Assembly: GCA_016202555.1 (NCBI GenBank) | Contig: JACQOL010000153.1 | Coordinates: forward strand, 1 to 13,077 | Source: Chloroflexota bacterium | GTDB lineage: Bacteria; Chloroflexota; Dehalococcoidia; Dehalococcoidales; UBA2162 | Length of the DNA stretch: 13,077 nt | Reading direction: 5' to 3' | Shown here: piece by piece, positions 5,038 to 11,108 of the stretch | Numbering within the stretch: the stretch's first letter is position 1 | Layout: every line of letters starts with the position of its first letter | Program-made: the position numbers and the translations under genes | Notes under the pieces: model-generated | Told to the model about the DNA's origin: nothing | What the model saw: the letters and a program-made list of their open reading frames with translations, nothing else | Database searches by the model: none

Positions 5038-5092
5038 TAAGATACCTTTACGGTGTTGAATAAGATTTACTAAGCCAAAGATTAACCTCCAA

Positions 5093-5170
5093 ATTGCTCT
5101 CCCTAATGGCTTTTGCCGATGGGAAGCAATCGATAAGGTGTGAAAGGAAACGCTCACGCCCCCCGTGTTT
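5093..5170 (+). ncRNA. Candidate structured 5' leader (two hairpins)
   Basis: The leader can form ATTGCT-c-TCCC (5093-5103) paired with GGGA-AGCAAT (5121-5130), enclosing a small GGC-TTTT-GCC hairpin (5108-5117). A second stem, CACG-ccccc-CGTG with flanking AAAC/TTT pairing, falls at about 5150-5170, directly before the GGAAAGGAGG of the first gene. The second stem is close enough to affect ribosome access. No known riboswitch was recognised with confidence. A molybdenum- or tungsten-cofactor sensor would fit the downstream genes but is only a hypothesis. Confidence 0.3.
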
Positions 5171-5183
5171 GGAAAGGAGGGAA

Positions 5184-5696
5184 ATGAATATAAGGTCGGG
5201 CCTTGCCCGTTTATCCCCTCGTCCCTTGTTGGTTTGTAGTTTTATTCTGCTGGTAATTGGGCTTGTCTCTGCCCCCAGCTGTTCGCCAGGAAGCTCAAGC
5301 ACACGGACGCCCTCTACCCCTTCCAATGTCAGTGCTACAACAACTTCGGCGCCATATGCCATAGCGGTGCTACAAAATGATAAGCAAATAGCCTCTCTTA
5401 CTATCAGTGATTTATCAAAACTAACTCAGGTAAAGGCCAATGTTGCTGGGACGGACGAGCAGGGACCAGCCCTTCTTTCCGTACTGAGTTTAGCAGGCAT
5501 AACAGATTTCGGAGAGGTAACTGTTTATGGATTTAGCAAAGGCCGGGTTACCTCTGCCGAACTGACACTGAAAAAAGCAGAAATAACTGATAACGTAATA
5601 CTAGCATTAGTGACTCGGGGCACGGCAAAGCTAACCGGCACAGACATCGGAGCTCAAAAGATGATAATAGACGTTAGTAAGCTGGTGGTTAGATGA
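5184..5696 (+). CDS. Secreted lipoprotein-like protein with a molybdopterin-oxidoreductase-like domain
   Basis: 170 residues from ATG at 5184, which has AAAGGAGG at 5173-5180. The frame is open back to 5094, but the chosen start gives a clean signal sequence: Arg-rich N-region, hydrophobic core at about 15-30, and APSC with Cys33 as a possible lipidation site. Pro and Ser at -2 and -1 make the lipobox imperfect. A Ser/Thr/Pro-rich linker (34-57) follows, then a compact domain (58-170) with TISDLSKL, a GPALLSVLSLAG segment, VTVYGFSKG and a terminal MIIDVSKLVV. This order resembles shortened sulfite-oxidase-type molybdopterin-binding domains, but without an identifiable cofactor-ligating Cys, so cofactor binding is unproven. 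Its TGA overlaps the ATG of the next gene (ATGA), so it heads a coupled operon with transport and Moco genes. A role in extracytoplasmic capture is inferred from context. Confidence 0.7.
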   Translation: MNIRSGLARLSPRPLLVCSFILLVIGLVSAPSCSPGSSSTRTPSTPSNVSATTTSAPYAIAVLQNDKQIASLTISDLSKLTQVKANVAGTDEQGPALLSVLSLAGITDFGEVTVYGFSKGRVTSAELTLKKAEITDNVILALVTRGTAKLTGTDIGAQKMIIDVSKLVVR

Positions 5697-6439
5697 GTTA
5701 CATCTTATATATCGGCGTGGATGACACTGATATTATTGGCAGCGCCGGCACTGGTAAGGTGGCCCGGGGACTGGCGAACCACCTCGTTAAGTTGGGTCTG
5801 GGCGAATCTCTGGGCGTCAGCCGTCACCAATTACTGGTCGACGGGCGGATAAGATACACTTCTCATAACAGCGCCAAGGGCATTGCACTGACAACCGAGA
5901 GAAAGGTCACCGAGTTCTACCAACCTTCCACCGACTATATTAAAGAATGTTTCCAGCCTGGCTCTGACCCCGGACTCTGTATTTGTAGTGAAGAGATGAT
6001 TGATGAAGAAATCATACAGTTTGGCAAGCGGGCAGTATCAGAAGTGCTCCTGATACGGGATGCCATTGACCTGGCAGCCCGGCACAAACTCTTTCTGAAA
6101 GGATTAGAGGGTAATGGTGAGGGGATAATCGGTGCCTTGGCGGCGGTTGGTCTGCGGGCCTGGGGCAACGAGAGTCGGTTAGTCGACCTGCCGGGTATTC
6201 GTGAGATTAAGGGACTAATTACGGTAGCTGAGATACTGAAGAGCACCCCCATCTGTTCGGTGCAGGATACCGATGGTAAGCTTCTGGATCAGAATGAGGT
6301 AATTGATAGCCTCGATTGGATAAGGCCATCACTTATCGGGGGACAGCCGGTACTTAGGGTCAAGCCGACTACAAATAGTGCCGGCAAGAGAATTTGGCTA
6401 TCCATTGAGAAAAGAGCTAAATCTGGAGGGGATGACTAA
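5693..6439 (+). CDS. TiaS-like two-domain protein (tRNA-Ile2 agmatinylcytidine synthetase family, truncated form)
   Basis: 248 residues. The N-terminal IGVDDTD (7-13) matches the start of the archaeal TiaS kinase-like domain, and GLEGNGEGIIGALAAVGL (137-154) matches its ferredoxin-like domain. Archaeal TiaS continues with OB-fold and zinc-ribbon domains that bind the tRNA; both are absent here. Bacteria normally modify the same C34 with TilS (lysidine), so agmatinylcytidine synthesis is unlikely. The retained part is the ATP-using half, and the protein may act on another substrate. Cys96 and Cys98 in GLCICS are an extra close pair. The start overlaps the upstream lipoprotein stop by 4 nt and the stop is 1 nt before the next gene, so all three are probably coupled. 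The link to molybdenum or tungsten metabolism comes from context only. Confidence 0.75.
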   Translation: MSYILYIGVDDTDIIGSAGTGKVARGLANHLVKLGLGESLGVSRHQLLVDGRIRYTSHNSAKGIALTTERKVTEFYQPSTDYIKECFQPGSDPGLCICSEEMIDEEIIQFGKRAVSEVLLIRDAIDLAARHKLFLKGLEGNGEGIIGALAAVGLRAWGNESRLVDLPGIREIKGLITVAEILKSTPICSVQDTDGKLLDQNEVIDSLDWIRPSLIGGQPVLRVKPTTNSAGKRIWLSIEKRAKSGGDD

Positions 6440-6440
6440 A

Positions 6441-7016
6441 ATGAGTAACGCAGAACTGACAGCAGAAAGTCTGAAGTTAAGACTGGTGCGGTGGGGACAA
6501 TCACAAAAGGTGAAAACACTCCGCCAAGTTTTACTCTTGGTTGGCATAGGGGTGGTGGCTACCCTGGCGAAGAGGCTTGAGCCATCTCTGGGTATCCCCG
6601 GTTCCAGCGCCCCCTTGTGGCTGGGAACTCTGGTAGCCGGACGGGCCATCGTGCGACGGGACGGGGCCGGCGTCCTGATGGGTGCTAGCGTGGCTGTTAT
6701 GGGCATCCCGGTAGGTCTCAACAACACTTTTTTACATAATCTCAGTCTCTACGGTCTCACCGGCTTATCTCTGGATATCATCGCCCGGCTGCCCAAAATA
6801 AATATCAGGAATCCGCTGGGTGCCATAGTCTGTGGGGCATCGGCACACATGGTCAAATTTGGTTTCATTATCGGGGCGGCTTATGCCAGCCCGGTAACCA
6901 AACATTTCCTGGTAGTTGGTCTAACGCAGGCGGCCCTCCTGCATCTGACCTTCGGAGCGACGGCTGGCATTATTGGTTGGGGAGCTTACCGAATCACGCG
7001 GCCGCACGCGAAATAG
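6441..7016 (+). CDS. Small integral membrane protein, ECF S-component-like
   Basis: 191 residues from ATG at 6441. A start three codons earlier (6432) overlaps the previous stop and lies only 2 nt after GGAGG, whereas 6441 is 11 nt after it. Hydrophobic segments fall at about 27-43, 52-70, 75-93, 98-115, 127-148 and 155-181, giving five or six helices. A basic cytoplasmic N-terminus contains KLRLVRWGQSQKVKTLR. The motif GIPGSSAPLWLGTLVAGR (51-68) and the overall size resemble the substrate-binding S components of ECF vitamin transporters (BioY/ThiW-like). No EAA-loop permease motif of ModB, WtpB or TupB type is visible. It precedes an ABC ATPase by 124 nt, so it may be the membrane partner of that ATPase. 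The substrate is unknown; molybdate, tungstate or a pterin or cofactor precursor are guesses from context. Confidence 0.65.
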   Translation: MSNAELTAESLKLRLVRWGQSQKVKTLRQVLLLVGIGVVATLAKRLEPSLGIPGSSAPLWLGTLVAGRAIVRRDGAGVLMGASVAVMGIPVGLNNTFLHNLSLYGLTGLSLDIIARLPKINIRNPLGAIVCGASAHMVKFGFIIGAAYASPVTKHFLVVGLTQAALLHLTFGATAGIIGWGAYRITRPHAK

Positions 7017-7046
7017 CAGTTGATGGAGTTAGCTAATAATCTCAAT

Positions 7047-7071
7047 AATCTAAAAGCGAGGAAAGAGGAAA
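7047..7071 (+). repeat. Direct repeat copy 1 (purine-rich ribosome-binding-like segment)
   Basis: These 25 bases (from AATCTAAAAG to AGGAAA) match 8216-8240 at 23 of 25 positions. The second copy supplies the ribosome binding site and the first base of the moaA ATG. This one is followed by no start codon and lies in the 124-nt gap before the ABC ATPase gene. Confidence 0.6.
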
Positions 7072-7140
7072 AATTAAACCATAGTTTGTTTGCTATGCCC
7101 TTTCAAATAAGGGGAATCTGGAGGTAAGGGCAAAGACAAG

Positions 7141-8187
7141 ATGATAGAAATCAAAGATTTATCAGTTAGCCTGGGTAGCTTTTTAATGAAAGATGTTACT
7201 CTAGACGTCCAGGATGGAGAATATTTTGTCCTTCTGGGACCTACCGGCGCCGGCAAAACCGTGCTCCTAGAATCTATCGCCGGACTGAAGCCCATTAGCC
7301 GTGGGCAAATATGGATCAATGGCCGGGATGTTACCCACCTCAATCTAGAGCAAAGGAATATCGGTTTTGCCTATCAGGACTATGTTCTCTATAGTCACCT
7401 ATCAATTCGTGGCAACATAACCTTCGGCTTAATGTGGAAGAACAAAAAGCAACGAGAGCTTGAAGAGGCGGTTGACCGAATAGTCGAGCTTCTTGGCATT
7501 AAATACCTGCTGGATAGAAGACCCCTCTCTCTAAGCGGGGGAGAAAGTCAGAAAATTGCCCTGGCCAGAGCACTAGCCATAAAGCCTGACCTTCTCCTCC
7601 TTGATGAGCCTTTGAGCGCCGTTGACCCGCAGACCAAAGAGACCTTTGAGAGGGAATTAAAAGAAATACATAACCGCCTGAGACTAACGACCATTCATGT
7701 TACTCATAACTTTGAAGAGGCGATTGCCCTTGGCGACCGTATCGCCGTTATCGGCGATGGACGTATCGTCCAGGTAGGCACTCCGGAGCAGATATTTCGC
7801 CACCCAAACTCAGAATTTACCGCCCGATTTGTCGGCACTAGAAATATCTTTAGCGGAGAAGTTACGGATGCCACCGAGGGACAAAGCATTTTCTGTATTG
7901 ATGGGGTAAGGTTGGCAGTAAATACCCAACGACGGGGTAAGCTTCACGCCTCTATTCGCCCAGAAGACATTCTGATTTCAAGAGAGCCGCTACACTCCGA
8001 CACTACTAATAGCCTTCCGGGCACCATCACCCATATCGCTGACCGTGGTTCGGTAGTCTACCTTACGGTAAATATACCGCCAGAATTCACCTGCCTCATC
8101 CTCCACCGTTCGCTTGAGGAGACAGGCTTCAGAGAGAAGGAGAAGGTATTCATCACCTTTAAGACATCAGCTGTGAATATCTTTTGA
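7141..8187 (+). CDS. ModC/WtpC-type ABC transporter ATP-binding protein (molybdate/tungstate-like)
   Basis: 348 residues. Seen: Walker A GPTGAGKT (33-40), Q-loop glutamine at about 79, signature LSGGESQK (131-138), Walker B LLLLDEP (151-157) followed by LSAVD, and the H-loop histidine at about 189. A C-terminal extension with SIRPEDILIS and later beta strands is the TOBE-like regulatory or oxyanion-binding domain of ModC, WtpC and CysA importers. It would power an importer from the cytosolic face of the membrane. No ModB-type permease or ModA-type binding protein is encoded nearby; the only candidate partners are the membrane protein and lipoprotein upstream, with moaA and moaC following. A molybdate or tungstate role is therefore likely but the subunit composition is unusual. 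GGAGGT lies 15 nt before the ATG, longer than ideal, and no better in-frame start was found. Confidence 0.85.
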   Translation: MIEIKDLSVSLGSFLMKDVTLDVQDGEYFVLLGPTGAGKTVLLESIAGLKPISRGQIWINGRDVTHLNLEQRNIGFAYQDYVLYSHLSIRGNITFGLMWKNKKQRELEEAVDRIVELLGIKYLLDRRPLSLSGGESQKIALARALAIKPDLLLLDEPLSAVDPQTKETFERELKEIHNRLRLTTIHVTHNFEEAIALGDRIAVIGDGRIVQVGTPEQIFRHPNSEFTARFVGTRNIFSGEVTDATEGQSIFCIDGVRLAVNTQRRGKLHASIRPEDILISREPLHSDTTNSLPGTITHIADRGSVVYLTVNIPPEFTCLILHRSLEETGFREKEKVFITFKTSAVNIF

Positions 8188-8215
8188 GGAAAGGGGCGAG
8201 ACAAGTTACAATCTT

Positions 8216-8240
8216 AATCTAAAAGTGAGGAAAGGGGAAA
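8216..8240 (+). repeat. Direct repeat copy 2, carrying the moaA ribosome binding site
   Basis: Matches 7047-7071 at 23 of 25 positions. It contains GAGGAAAGGGG and ends on the A of the moaA ATG. A shorter look-alike pair, AAGGGGCGAGACAAG (8191-8205) and AAGGGCAAAGACAAG (7126-7140), accompanies it in the opposite relative order. Confidence 0.6.
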
Positions 8241-9226
8241 TGACCGGCCTTTTTGACTCCTGGCAACGCCAGATTAATTATCTGAGAATATCGGTTACTG
8301 AGCGCTGTAACCTGAACTGTATCTATTGCTCGGCAGCTTCTATTGCTCCTCTACCCCGTAATGAAATACTAAGCTATGAACAAATCCAACGCATCGTCAG
8401 GGTGGCTGCCGGTATGGGTATCACTAAGGTACGCCTCACCGGTGGTGAGCCTCTGGCTCGGCCCGATTTTATTAAACTGGTGGGTATGATTGCTGGGATA
8501 AACGGCATCGACGATGTCGCAATAACAACCAACGGCATCCTGCTGGGTAAGTATGCCAGGGAACTGAAAGATGCCGGCCTGAACCGGGTCAATGTCAGCC
8601 TGGATACTCTGAAACGAGACAGGTTCAAGCAGATTACCGGCGGGGACAAACTGGCTGAGGTGCTCGCCGGTATCGAAGACGCTCATCTGGCTGGATTAGA
8701 GCCAGTCAAGATAAACGTAGTGGTGATGCGGGGTAAGAATGACGATGAAATTTTAGACTTTGCCCGTAAAACCATTACCGAAGGCTGGCATATCAGGTTC
8801 ATTGAATTTATGCCCTTCGGGACGTGTGGAACCGATGGTGTTGAGACGGTAGCCACTCGTGAAATCCAGGAACGTCTTCAGGTTCTGGGCAAGCTGGAGC
8901 CTTTCGCCGGTCCGGCAGGTAACGGGCCTGCTAAATATTTTAAGTTTCCCGGCTCAAAGGGCAGCGTCGGTTTTATTACCCCGATGACGGAGCACTTTTG
9001 TGCTACCTGCAACCGCCTCCGGATTACTTCGGACGGACAGCTACGCCCCTGCCTGTTAGGTAATGACGAAGTAAATCTGAAGGGAGCCCTGGGCAATGAG
9101 TCAAGTGATGATGAGATAAAACAGCTTATCCAGCAGGCGGTCAGGCTTAAGAGGGAAGAGCATCACCTGAGCGGTGAGCTTATCCCGGAGGCAGTGACCC
9201 GTCCGATGCGCCAGATAGGAGGCTAA
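8240..9226 (+). CDS. moaA: GTP 3',8-cyclase MoaA (radical SAM)
   Basis: MoaA converts GTP with S-adenosylmethionine to 3',8-cyclo-GTP, the first step of molybdopterin synthesis. Seen: the radical-SAM cluster CNLNCIYC (Cys23, 27, 30), RLTGGEPL (about 66-73) and the C-terminal second 4Fe-4S site CATC...C (Cys254, 257, 271). The protein ends in Gly-Gly, the flexible tail that inserts in the MoaA active site. At 328 residues it is full length. An in-frame GTG five codons upstream (8225) is rejected because it overlaps the ribosome binding site GAGGAAAGGGG; ATG at 8240 begins TGLFDSWQRQINYLRIS, as in the family. It follows the ABC ATPase by 52 nt and precedes moaC, its pathway partner, by 90 nt. 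Confidence 0.96.
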   Translation: MTGLFDSWQRQINYLRISVTERCNLNCIYCSAASIAPLPRNEILSYEQIQRIVRVAAGMGITKVRLTGGEPLARPDFIKLVGMIAGINGIDDVAITTNGILLGKYARELKDAGLNRVNVSLDTLKRDRFKQITGGDKLAEVLAGIEDAHLAGLEPVKINVVVMRGKNDDEILDFARKTITEGWHIRFIEFMPFGTCGTDGVETVATREIQERLQVLGKLEPFAGPAGNGPAKYFKFPGSKGSVGFITPMTEHFCATCNRLRITSDGQLRPCLLGNDEVNLKGALGNESSDDEIKQLIQQAVRLKREEHHLSGELIPEAVTRPMRQIGG

Positions 9227-9241
9227 GTTAAAGGGGAGAGT

Positions 9242-9265
9242 TTGAGAGGGCTAACGCCCTCTCAA
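9242..9265 (+). terminator. Perfect 10-bp hairpin after moaA (terminator or palindromic repeat)
   Basis: TTGAGAGGGC and GCCCTCTCAA pair perfectly around a TAAC loop, 15 nt after the moaA stop. No real U-run follows, so it may be an attenuating or mRNA-stabilising hairpin rather than a full terminator. A hairpin with the same GGGCTAACGCCC core is at 11200-11223, pointing to a dispersed repeat family. Confidence 0.55.
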
Positions 9266-9277
9266 GTATCATATCTT

Positions 9278-9302
9278 CCCCCTCTCCTTCCAGGAGAGGG
9301 GG
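9278..9302 (+). repeat. Palindromic intergenic repeat (CCCTCTCCT/AGGAGAGGG type) before moaC
   Basis: An 11-bp perfect stem, CCCCCTCTCCT with AGGAGAGGGGG, closes on a 3-nt loop. It is followed by GTCAGGGGGTGAGGT, which runs directly into the moaC ATG. Repeats of this appearance (CCTCTCC...GGAGAGG...GGGTGAGG) are scattered between genes in many bacteria. Here the flank of the repeat serves as the moaC ribosome binding site, so folding could lower initiation of moaC. Confidence 0.6.
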
Positions 9303-9316
9303 TCAGGGGGTGAGGT

Positions 9317-9793
9317 ATGCCTAAACTAACTCATCTCAATGCCAAAGGCGAAGCCCGAATGGTAAATATCAGCCAGAAGGGTGATACCGAGCGTGAGGCG
9401 GTCGCCAGGGGCAAAGTAATAATGAAGCCGACCACCCTGGAGCAGATAAGGGCTAATAGCCTGAAGAAGGGGGATGTTCTGGCAGTCGCCCGGGTGGCTG
9501 GCATTATGGCTGCCAAAAAGACGCCTGAGTTAATACCACTCTGCCACCCAATCCTGACCAATGAAATCGCCATTGATTTCGACCTCTCTGAGAATGATGC
9601 CATCGGCATCACCGCCACGGTAAAGTGCCTGGGTAAAACAGGGGCCGAAATGGAAGCCCTAGTCGCCACCTCGGTGGCTGCCCTAACCATTTATGATATG
9701 GGCAAGTCTGTGGATAGAGGTATGACCATCACCGAAATCTACCTGGAAAGCAAGCGGGGGGGAAAGAGCGGAGTTTACAAGAGGGAAAAGTAG
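9317..9793 (+). CDS. moaC: Cyclic pyranopterin monophosphate synthase MoaC
   Basis: MoaC rearranges 3',8-cyclo-GTP made by MoaA into cyclic pyranopterin monophosphate. Seen: MVNISQKGDTEREAVARG, AGIMAAKKTPELIPLCHP and the active-site region TGAEMEALVATSVAALTIYDMGK, with the conserved Lys-Ser-Val-Asp that follows. The length of 158 residues is normal. The ATG follows GGGGGTGAGGT immediately, an unusually tight ribosome binding site formed by the flank of a palindromic repeat. It is 90 nt after moaA. The last ten codons (from GGA at 9761) are repeated, with changes, at 9879-9908 beyond an inverted-repeat element, so the original 3' end of the gene seems to have been altered. Other Moco genes (moaD, moaE, moeA) are not in the window. 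Confidence 0.96.
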   Translation: MPKLTHLNAKGEARMVNISQKGDTEREAVARGKVIMKPTTLEQIRANSLKKGDVLAVARVAGIMAAKKTPELIPLCHPILTNEIAIDFDLSENDAIGITATVKCLGKTGAEMEALVATSVAALTIYDMGKSVDRGMTITEIYLESKRGGKSGVYKREK

Positions 9794-9988: not shown

Positions 9989-10552
9989 TTAAAATAGGGT
10001 GTCCCACATGGGCTTTTCTTTCTTTCTCTTCTTCGTAGGTATTAGACGCTTCGTTGTCTTAGGGAGCTTTTTCTTAGACTTTTCACTCACAGAATGCAAG
10101 TCTGCATTGGTCACGACCCCAGAAAGTTTATTAATATACTGGCGTTTTGTAGGAGCTTTTCGATGGGAATCAAACATCGTTTCAACGACTTGCCCGGTCA
10201 CTCTTATATGATGTTTCCCTGCTAGTAGTTTTAGTTGCGTGATGGTCAGTGTTTCCAAAGTCGCCTTCATATCTGTTTTCGGGTCTTTTATCCCCTGTTT
10301 CTTCATAAAGGTAGCCCAACTATCAGTGCCCTGTAACTTGTTACATCGATAACAAATGCAAACACTGTTTCTTAAAGTAGTACTTCCCCCCTTCGACCAT
10401 GCAGTCTTATGCCCTACTTGCATTTCATCGAATTCTATCTTCTTGTTACAGCCAGGGTTTTGGCATCTACCTTTAGAATTACGGTATAGAATCTGTTTGT
10501 CTCTTATGCCGATAGTCCGTTTCGAGTCGAGTCCATTATCAAAGAAAAACAT
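9989..10552 (-). CDS. HNH endonuclease-domain protein with Lys-rich tail
   Basis: 187 residues. Seen: an HNH/beta-beta-alpha-metal nuclease core with CQNPGC (Cys30, 35), VGHKTAWSKGGSTTLRNSV (His48, Asn62) and CYRC (Cys67, 70) followed by NKLQG. The two Cys pairs would bind structural zinc and His48 would be catalytic. A helical segment, LTITQLKLLAGKHHIRVTG (102-120), plus KAPTKRQYINKLSG, resembles a SAP-like DNA-binding unit, and the C-terminus (about 159-180) is very Lys/Arg rich. Strong AAGGAGGT 6 nt before the ATG. The gene is visibly AT-richer than its neighbours and splits moaB from moaC, suggesting acquisition. It could belong to a mobile element or a defence or restriction function; no integrase or methylase is next to it, so the target is unknown. 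Confidence 0.8.
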   Translation of the reverse strand: MFFFDNGLDSKRTIGIRDKQILYRNSKGRCQNPGCNKKIEFDEMQVGHKTAWSKGGSTTLRNSVCICYRCNKLQGTDSWATFMKKQGIKDPKTDMKATLETLTITQLKLLAGKHHIRVTGQVVETMFDSHRKAPTKRQYINKLSGVVTNADLHSVSEKSKKKLPKTTKRLIPTKKRKKEKPMWDTLF

Positions 10553-10604: not shown

Positions 10605-11108
10605 TCACCGGCTTGCCTCTCTCACCATATGCCCGATTTCGGGTAAGATTACCTTATCCATGGCCAGAGTTACCGCCCCCAGAGAGCCGGGGAGACAGAG
10701 AGTAATCTTGCCTCCCACCACCCCGGCAATAGCCCGGCTCAACATACTCGCCGAGCCAATCTCCTGGTAAGATAAGAAGCGGAAAAGCTCGCCAAAGCCG
10801 TCCAGTTTCTTCTCCAGCATCGGGGAGATTGTCTCCACGGTAACATCCCGGTGGCTGAGCCCAGTGCCGCCACTGATGATGATAACCTGAAGCTCTTGCT
10901 GCCCCACCAGCTCGGCTATTTTCTGCCTGATAGATTCGGCGTCATTTTTCAAAAGGGAGTAAGCCATTACCTGGTGCCCGTTCTGGCTGAGCCTTTGCTT
11001 AATCAGCCGACCCGATTCATCAGTCTGTTCCGTCCGGCTATCCGAAATGATGACAACAGCACAGTTCACGCTCCGGGGCGACTTCTCCCGGTGTTCCTGA
11101 TAGCTCAC
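10605..11108 (-). CDS. moaB: MoaB/MogA family molybdopterin adenylyltransferase
   Basis: MogA/MoaB-fold proteins adenylate molybdopterin to prepare it for metal insertion; in anaerobes MoaB-type members serve tungstopterin as well. Seen: AVVIISDSRTEQTDESG, ISGGTGLSHRDVT (78-90) with the conserved GGTG and Asp88, SYQEIGSASMLSRAIAG (113-129) and LPGSLGAV (139-146). The length of 167 residues matches MoaB. MoaB and MogA cannot be told apart safely from sequence reading alone. The start is GTG at 11108, with AAAGG-type purines 8-14 nt upstream and no nearby ATG. It is read away from moaC, with an HNH gene 52 nt downstream on the same strand. A strong promoter lies at 11170-11141. Confidence 0.92.
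   Translation of the reverse strand: MSYQEHREKSPRSVNCAVVIISDSRTEQTDESGRLIKQRLSQNGHQVMAYSLLKNDAESIRQKIAELVGQQELQVIIISGGTGLSHRDVTVETISPMLEKKLDGFGELFRFLSYQEIGSASMLSRAIAGVVGGKITLCLPGSLGAVTLAMDKVILPEIGHMVREASR

Follow-up and report, generated by a model that had tools for sequence, protein, structure and literature searches.

Organization of the Locus

The stretch of DNA analyzed here, referred to as the window, is the 13,077-nucleotide contig JACQOL010000153.1 from the Chloroflexota bacterium assembly GCA_016202555.1, read on the forward strand. The window is the entire contig C124 of a 955-kb metagenome-assembled genome (MAG) with a completeness of 61.8%. An apparent single operon (5075–9793, + strand) carries, in order, a molybdenum cofactor (Moco) riboswitch and the genes for a lipoprotein, a TiaS-like protein, a small membrane protein, a WtpC-like ATPase, MoaA, and MoaC. 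The genes for the lipoprotein (5184–5696, +, 170 aa), the TiaS-like protein (5693–6439, +, 248 aa), and the membrane protein (6441–7016, +, 191 aa) overlap or almost touch, with overlapping stop and start codons present, and are referred to below as the cassette. A gap of 124 nucleotides separates the membrane-protein gene from wtpC. No permease or binding protein was found in the window.

A first-pass annotation of this DNA had described a candidate importer lacking the usual permease and periplasmic binding protein, in which a lipoprotein with a molybdopterin-oxidoreductase-like fold and a membrane protein resembling the S components of energy-coupling factor (ECF) transporters accompany an ATPase of the molybdate/tungstate class. 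The absence of the usual permease and binding protein holds for the window, and the assignments of the ATPase, lipoprotein, and membrane protein are borne out below. An undescribed uptake system is plausible.

Conservation of the Cassette

The genes for the SUOX-like protein (the lipoprotein of the window), the TiaS-like protein, and the membrane protein are adjacent and in the same order in all five cassette loci, which span two phyla: two from Dehalococcoidia (the window and L003) and three from Riflebacteria (L004, L005, and L055). The cassette locus of genome G186 is the same as L003 in its frames and riboswitch coordinates. These adjacency counts cover genome contigs; the closest relatives, at identities of up to 85%, are on metagenome contigs, most of them short. 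The membrane protein was detected in 2 of the 245 sampled genomes of the class and in 3 of 39 Riflebacteria genomes, where the class and order searches are samples from larger groups. Gene names in the fetched loci were taken from family scans or else judged by eye from the first residues. A scan of genome contigs with the membrane-protein alignment returned 14 stretches that included 3 relatives, and 24 pattern matches in viral contigs included none. Seventeen longest-contig sizes are common to the 47 membrane-protein matches and the 120 listed TiaS-like matches; the window and L003 are among these exact size coincidences, some few of which could be due to chance (jitter control mean of 1.0, maximum of 5).

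A WtpC-type ATPase lies beside the cassette in one of the five loci, that of the window. A blastp search with the window WtpC against the frames of L003, L004, L005, and L055 gave no match at 1e-20. In L003, an ABC ATPase and an ABC-2-like partner (by eye) are found approximately 1 kb onward, across an integrase on the opposite strand. The four-gene set proposed in the first-pass annotation was therefore not recovered as a unit when relatives were searched for it, and a four-gene transporter built on an ATPase core was rejected, with a WtpC-type ATPase alongside the cassette in 0 of the 4 other loci.

The cassette is directly followed by a TonB-dependent receptor in all three Riflebacteria loci, and L004 also contains a TonB gene. 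The best name for the receptor is of the B12 type, with a score of 163.6 bits against a cut-off of 599.7, and it was not used as evidence of the substrate. A regulator with HTH and PBP_like domains is located upstream of the cassette in L005 and L055. The surroundings of the cassette in L055 (11119–17492) hold this HTH-PBP_like regulator, a LysR regulator, a molybdopterin oxidoreductase, and FdhD.

The Moco Riboswitch

A Moco/tungsten-cofactor riboswitch (RF01055) in the form lacking stem P3 was identified at 5075–5195 (+) with a cmscan score of 71.3 bits, relative to a gathering score of 36. This element was not reported in the first-pass annotation and, together with moaA and moaC, supports the link of the operon to the molybdenum or tungsten (Mo/W) cofactor. 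A Shine-Dalgarno-like stretch for the lipoprotein ATG at position 5184 was located at 5174–5182 (+) by reading the sequence against the cmscan structure line. Because this stretch sits within the conserved GGAAAGGAG strand, the 3′ closing strand of the aptamer, translational repression of the lipoprotein gene by the bound cofactor would be the natural reading.

Alignment of the window riboswitch shows that P3 is deleted. In excerpts of the founding paper, P3 is absent from 58 of 176 Moco RNAs, and tungsten-cofactor genes occur in 17 of the 19 organisms bearing P3-lacking Moco RNAs (PMC2408646). By the absence of P3 the window riboswitch falls within the tungsten-cofactor subclass, and this cofactor may be its ligand. 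The RNA also deviates from the consensus at conserved sites, with a linker GA changed to AA and altered stem letters that are partly re-paired, and its specificity may have diverged. A Moco riboswitch precedes the cassette in both the window and L003, and P3 is absent from both. Among the aligned RNAs, P3 is also absent from the G186 cassette leader (L068), the leaders of a FecCD-type operon (L056) and a wtpB-wtpC operon (L061), and both tandem copies ahead of the Tup genes of G186 (L065), and it is present in the WtpABC leader of L058.

Tandem riboswitches were observed at two other loci. In L020 (14792–16999), two tandem copies precede a gene judged by eye to be ferredoxin-like and a second gene with an AFOR_N match (244 bits), which encodes an aldehyde ferredoxin oxidoreductase, a member of a tungsten-enzyme family. 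In L062 (6475–6785), two more are found downstream of a wtpB-wtpC pair.

The Membrane Protein

The predicted structure of the membrane protein contains six long helices from residue 22 onward, in addition to an N-terminal helix and a short helix. The model has the S-component fold and is closest to YkoE (5edl), and all of the top 12 VIA rows are S components. The curated S-component family PF09819 gave weak matches to 6 of 24 relatives (best score of 20.9 bits, cut-off of 25.2) and none to the window protein. Sequence searches of the PDB with the membrane-protein alignment and with one relative returned no credible match. An AxxxA sequence, a candidate for the xxxA-type EcfT contact motif of helix 1, appears in 6 of 24 rows; YkoE likewise is without the group II EcfT contact motif according to excerpts of PMC5037267.

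The invariant residues are Trp60, Lys44, Asn100, Tyr104, His136, Lys139, and His168. As judged from the helix list, they would be located in the outer half of the protein. The invariant Trp is on the helix that follows the first long helix. In YkoE, a Trp of helix H2 stacks on the pyrimidine of the ligand, as described in the same excerpts (PMC5037267), and the Trp of the membrane protein may be its equivalent. The cassette is not classed as an ECF transporter because the operon is without EcfT, and its mode of action may well be that of a solitary S component. Biotin transport by solitary BioY proteins is reported in a title cited in PMC11109136.

The Lipoprotein

The predicted model of the lipoprotein matches PruR and the sulfite-oxidase fold, and the protein is best described as a truncated sulfite-oxidase/PruR-like domain of the pterin-binding type, which specifies the molybdopterin-oxidoreductase-like fold named initially. 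A search of PDB sequences with the lipoprotein alignment gave no credible match. A Cys is found in the lipobox column of 15 of the 17 aligned rows, and the remaining 2 rows are gapped there. Apart from this column, no alignment column has Cys in at least 5 of the 17 rows. A Mo-enzyme role for the lipoprotein was rejected because the domain has no conserved Cys ligand. The lipobox Cys is present in both Dehalococcoidia cassette loci, and the three Riflebacteria loci have no clear lipobox by eye, with a Cys of L005 falling inside the hydrophobic stretch. A binding protein that acts externally would be expected to show this distribution. The window lipoprotein may bind a pterin.

In excerpts of PMC13259868, PruR is described as a periplasmic subunit that senses pterins, and S-component folds have also been found in receptors, as noted in part of PMC11109136. 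The cassette could thus sense rather than transport, with the PruR-like and S-like proteins acting as the receptor of a signal, either a pterin or a metal, that is read out by the TiaS-like protein. This function is considered improbable, since no output domain or regulator is common to all five loci, the TonB-dependent receptor that follows the cassette in the three Riflebacteria suits import, and a full FecCD-type importer takes the place of the membrane protein in order-mates (described below).

The TiaS-like Protein

The product of the second gene is a TiaS-like (TCKD-type) cytoplasmic protein and a putative ATP-dependent enzyme. The NCBIfam TiaS model matches residues 5–154 with 33.4 bits, and matches to PDB entries 3u02, 3au7, 3amt, and 4rvz were obtained at E values of about 1e-7. 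Assignment as TiaS proper was rejected, as the cut-off of the model is 600 bits and only model positions 3–152 of 422 are covered. The family is large and mostly unnamed: of the 8,000 candidates scored, 5,999 gave a match, and 120 of these were listed. A plasmid search gave 3 distant TiaS-like matches. TiaS-like proteins occur in 14 of the 245 sampled genomes of the class and in 5 of 151 genomes of the order. The contexts examined in the class number 12, comprising 11 fetched loci and the window, with genomes G209 and G227 (2 of the 14) outside this set. Five of the 12 are linked to Mo/W genes (the window, G186, G238, G135, and G021).

In G238 and G135 a Moco riboswitch is followed by genes for a lipoprotein, a FecCD-type permease, an ATPase, a binding protein, and, last, the TiaS-like protein, with the G135 genes named by family scans. 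The FecCD arrangement is repeated in G302 (L056), and the G320 locus (L057) is truncated at the contig end.

The TiaS-like protein might instead be a maturation enzyme for the W/Mo cofactor, with the lipoprotein and membrane protein serving another membrane step in an operon that is merely co-regulated. Such a role would fit the occurrence of TiaS-like genes alongside import modules of three different types (FecCD-type, TupABC, and S-like) and the weak matches of the protein to methanogenesis marker 11. It is nevertheless quite unlikely, given that the three genes are tightly adjacent and identically ordered at all five loci and that stop and start codons overlap in the window.

The WtpC-like ATPase, moaA, and moaC

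The fourth gene (7141–8187, +) encodes a 348-residue WtpC-like ABC ATPase with a TOBE domain (ABC_tran, 109 bits). Its nearest NCBIfam model is WtpC (NF040840, 403 bits, cut-off of 440), followed by ModC at 197 bits (cut-off of 285); the molybdate/tungstate class is confirmed by these scores, which are below every equivalog cut-off. The window WtpC is probably a recruited canonical WtpC, because it is 56–63% identical to the WtpC proteins found beside strong WtpB matches in order-mates; identity to the WtpC proteins of G320 and G135 is 40–46%. The order riboswitch, wtpB, wtpC, and binding protein is found in L060, L061, and L063 (SBP_bac_11 was scanned in L060 and L061). L062 has a riboswitch, wtpB, and wtpC, and L064 and L059 end at the contig edge before any leader.

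A 26-nucleotide direct repeat flanks wtpC. The upstream copy (7046–7071, +) is identical at 24 of 26 positions to the downstream copy (8215–8240, +), which ends at the moaA start codon; the best of 60 dinucleotide shuffles reached 19. Because wtpC is found beside the cassette in the window alone and is flanked by this repeat, it was probably inserted between the cassette and moaA as a later addition.

No match to the WtpB model was found in the genome that contains the window, about 38% of which may be missing from the MAG; an importer may be encoded in the missing part. The ModB model gave two weak matches in this genome (35.6 and 27.5 bits, cut-off of 182.6), both at Pst-type places, and the seven matches to BPD permeases were read as Opp/Dpp (peptide) and Pst (phosphate) types.

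The genes moaA (GTP 3′,8-cyclase; 8240–9226, +; TIGR02666, 372 bits, cut-off of 284), for which the ATG at 8240 is the likely start, and moaC (9317–9793, +; TIGR00581, 199 bits, cut-off of 141.5) complete the operon. On the opposite strand, a MoCF_biosynth gene of the MoaB/MogA type (10605–11108) faces the operon and may act in the same pathway. An HNH endonuclease gene (9989–10552, −) without obvious link is located between this gene and moaC.

Substrate of the Cassette

Genes for Mo/W-type permeases were found elsewhere in all four of the other cassette genomes. G186 encodes TupA, TupB, and an ATPase behind the tandem riboswitches, G246 encodes TupA and TupB, G245 encodes ModB (above the cut-off) and TupA, and G401 encodes a ModB-like permease and TupA; the scores for TupA, TupB, and the ModB of G401 are under the curated equivalog cut-offs. 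Because of these permeases, the cassette is probably not the sole Mo/W supply in the four genomes, and the bare molybdate or tungstate substrate considered in the first-pass annotation is weakened. The S-component and PruR folds are known mainly for organic ligands, with the exception of the Co/Ni S components. An organic ligand of the cofactor type is favored over a bare oxyanion because of the separate permeases, these two folds, and the TonB-dependent receptor.

Import of bare tungstate or molybdate, the reading of the first-pass annotation, is considered somewhat less likely: the S-like protein would replace WtpB, the lipoprotein would replace WtpA, and WtpC would give the ATP. Consistent with this function are the position of wtpC after the cassette in the window, the P3-lacking riboswitch at the head of the wtpB-wtpC-binding protein operon of an order-mate (L061), the invariant Lys and His residues, which suit an anion, and the lack of a WtpB match in the incomplete MAG. 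Two further loci point to the oxyanion. In G021 (L022, 6957–10879), the TiaS-like gene is inside a TupABC operon with the order TupA, TiaS-like, TupB, and WtpC/TupC-type ATPase, and no Moco riboswitch was found there; this placement would link the mostly unnamed TiaS-like family to tungstate uptake. In G135 (L058, 2772–6665), a PF00174 lipoprotein (58.9 bits) stands between the P3-containing Moco riboswitch and WtpA, WtpB, and WtpC, which may represent a tungstate importer of the canonical kind that has gained a SUOX-type lipoprotein. Against import of the oxyanion are the presence of the WtpC-type ATPase in one locus of five, the Tup/Mod-type permeases elsewhere in the other four genomes, the position of wtpC between the repeat copies, and the ligands typical of the two folds.

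In addition to L022 and L058, several observations weigh against import of an organic cofactor-type compound by the cassette. The Foldseek match of the membrane protein to S components has an E value of 0.025, with a Z about 3 above unrelated helical rows. No EcfT, and no EcfT with EcfA as in group I, was found beside the cassette in the window or in the four other cassette loci. EcfT (PF02361) is encoded somewhere in 3 of the 5 cassette genomes, where it is possible that an ECF module acts in trans, and none was found in G000 and G401. In the Riflebacteria cassette genomes, none of the first-look candidates that were scored (150 of 540, 222, and 155) proved to be a Moco riboswitch; in G186, 150 of 217 candidates were scored. 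The MoaA C-terminal domain is present in all five cassette genomes, and import is therefore not needed for want of synthesis. Seven of the 12 TiaS-like contexts in the class, all of which belong to one more distant family, are without Mo/W genes (by eye) and without a Moco riboswitch. Excerpts of PMC13259868 indicate that the site of PruR itself is likely too small for Moco.

Proposed Function

With these points considered, it is tentatively proposed, at somewhat less than even confidence, that the operon encodes an import module for an organic compound related to the Mo/W cofactor, such as a molybdopterin-type pterin or a metal-pterin species. At low levels of the cofactor, the riboswitch, whose structure is observed, would permit synthesis of the cassette. 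The PruR-like lipoprotein would capture the compound outside the membrane, as its predicted fold suggests, and the S-component-like protein would bind it through the invariant residues and carry it across without EcfT. The TiaS-like protein would then modify the compound inside the cell in an ATP-dependent reaction that leads to trapping. In Riflebacteria, the TonB-dependent receptor would bring the compound over the outer membrane. WtpC would be an accessory, either energizing a WtpB encoded elsewhere or recruited to this locus, and MoaA and MoaC would act in making the same cofactor de novo.

A broader claim is more speculative, namely that the cassette is the first known salvage uptake system for molybdopterin, Moco, the tungsten cofactor, or a pterin precursor, with capture by a PruR-type protein, carriage by a solitary S-like protein, and trapping by a TiaS-like enzyme, controlled by a Moco/tungsten-cofactor (Tuco) riboswitch and, in diderms, joined by a TonB receptor. 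In excerpts of a riboswitch-regulon survey, coenzyme-uptake categories are given for B12, thiamin, riboflavin, queuosine, and folate, Moco is placed under biosynthesis alone, and Mo/W transporters are placed under metal homeostasis (PMC3766115). A cobalt ECF transporter is described in part of PMC13119186, and no relevant paper connecting molybdate, tungsten, or molybdopterin with an ECF transporter or an S component was found in the open-licence literature. If the proposal is true, a vitamin-transporter-fold protein controlled by a Moco riboswitch and encoded beside a pterin-binding-type protein fills the gap in Moco uptake, and the large TiaS-like family gains a testable role.

Comparison with Known Systems

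The cassette resembles YkoE and the solitary S components BioY and BtuM in the predicted S fold (best match 5edl), the weak PF09819 matches in 6 of 24 relatives, the riboswitch-controlled operon, and an invariant Trp in one of the first membrane helices. It differs in that the window operon contains neither EcfT nor EcfA and is linked to Moco rather than to a B vitamin, and in that the membrane protein has invariant Lys and His residues and matches no viewed curated family above the cut-off. The lipoprotein shares with PruR the sulfite-oxidase fold, small size, secretion, and a domain without conserved metal-ligand Cys, as described in excerpts of PMC13259868, whereas the window-type protein is lipid-anchored in Dehalococcoidia and placed in an uptake-type operon, and a DcpA-type receptor was not seen among the window frames by eye. 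The N-terminal 150 residues of the second protein align with TiaS, the tRNA-Ile2 agmatinylcytidine synthetase, but the protein is 248 residues long relative to 422 model positions, its score is far under the cut-off, and it is without tRNA context.

In comparison with WtpABC, TupABC, and ModABC, the window ATPase is WtpC-like and the same riboswitch class heads wtpB-wtpC operons in the order, but the window locus has no permease or binding protein and the other four cassette loci have no WtpC-type ATPase. The FecCD-type operons (L020, L021, and L056) share the Moco riboswitch, a lipoprotein in first position, and a TiaS-like protein in last position. The lipoprotein is supported in L056 by PF00174 at 23.7 bits (cut-off of 24) and in L020 by alignment only, and that of L021 has no Pfam hit. 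In these operons, a full ABC importer occupies the place that is taken in the window by the S-like protein.

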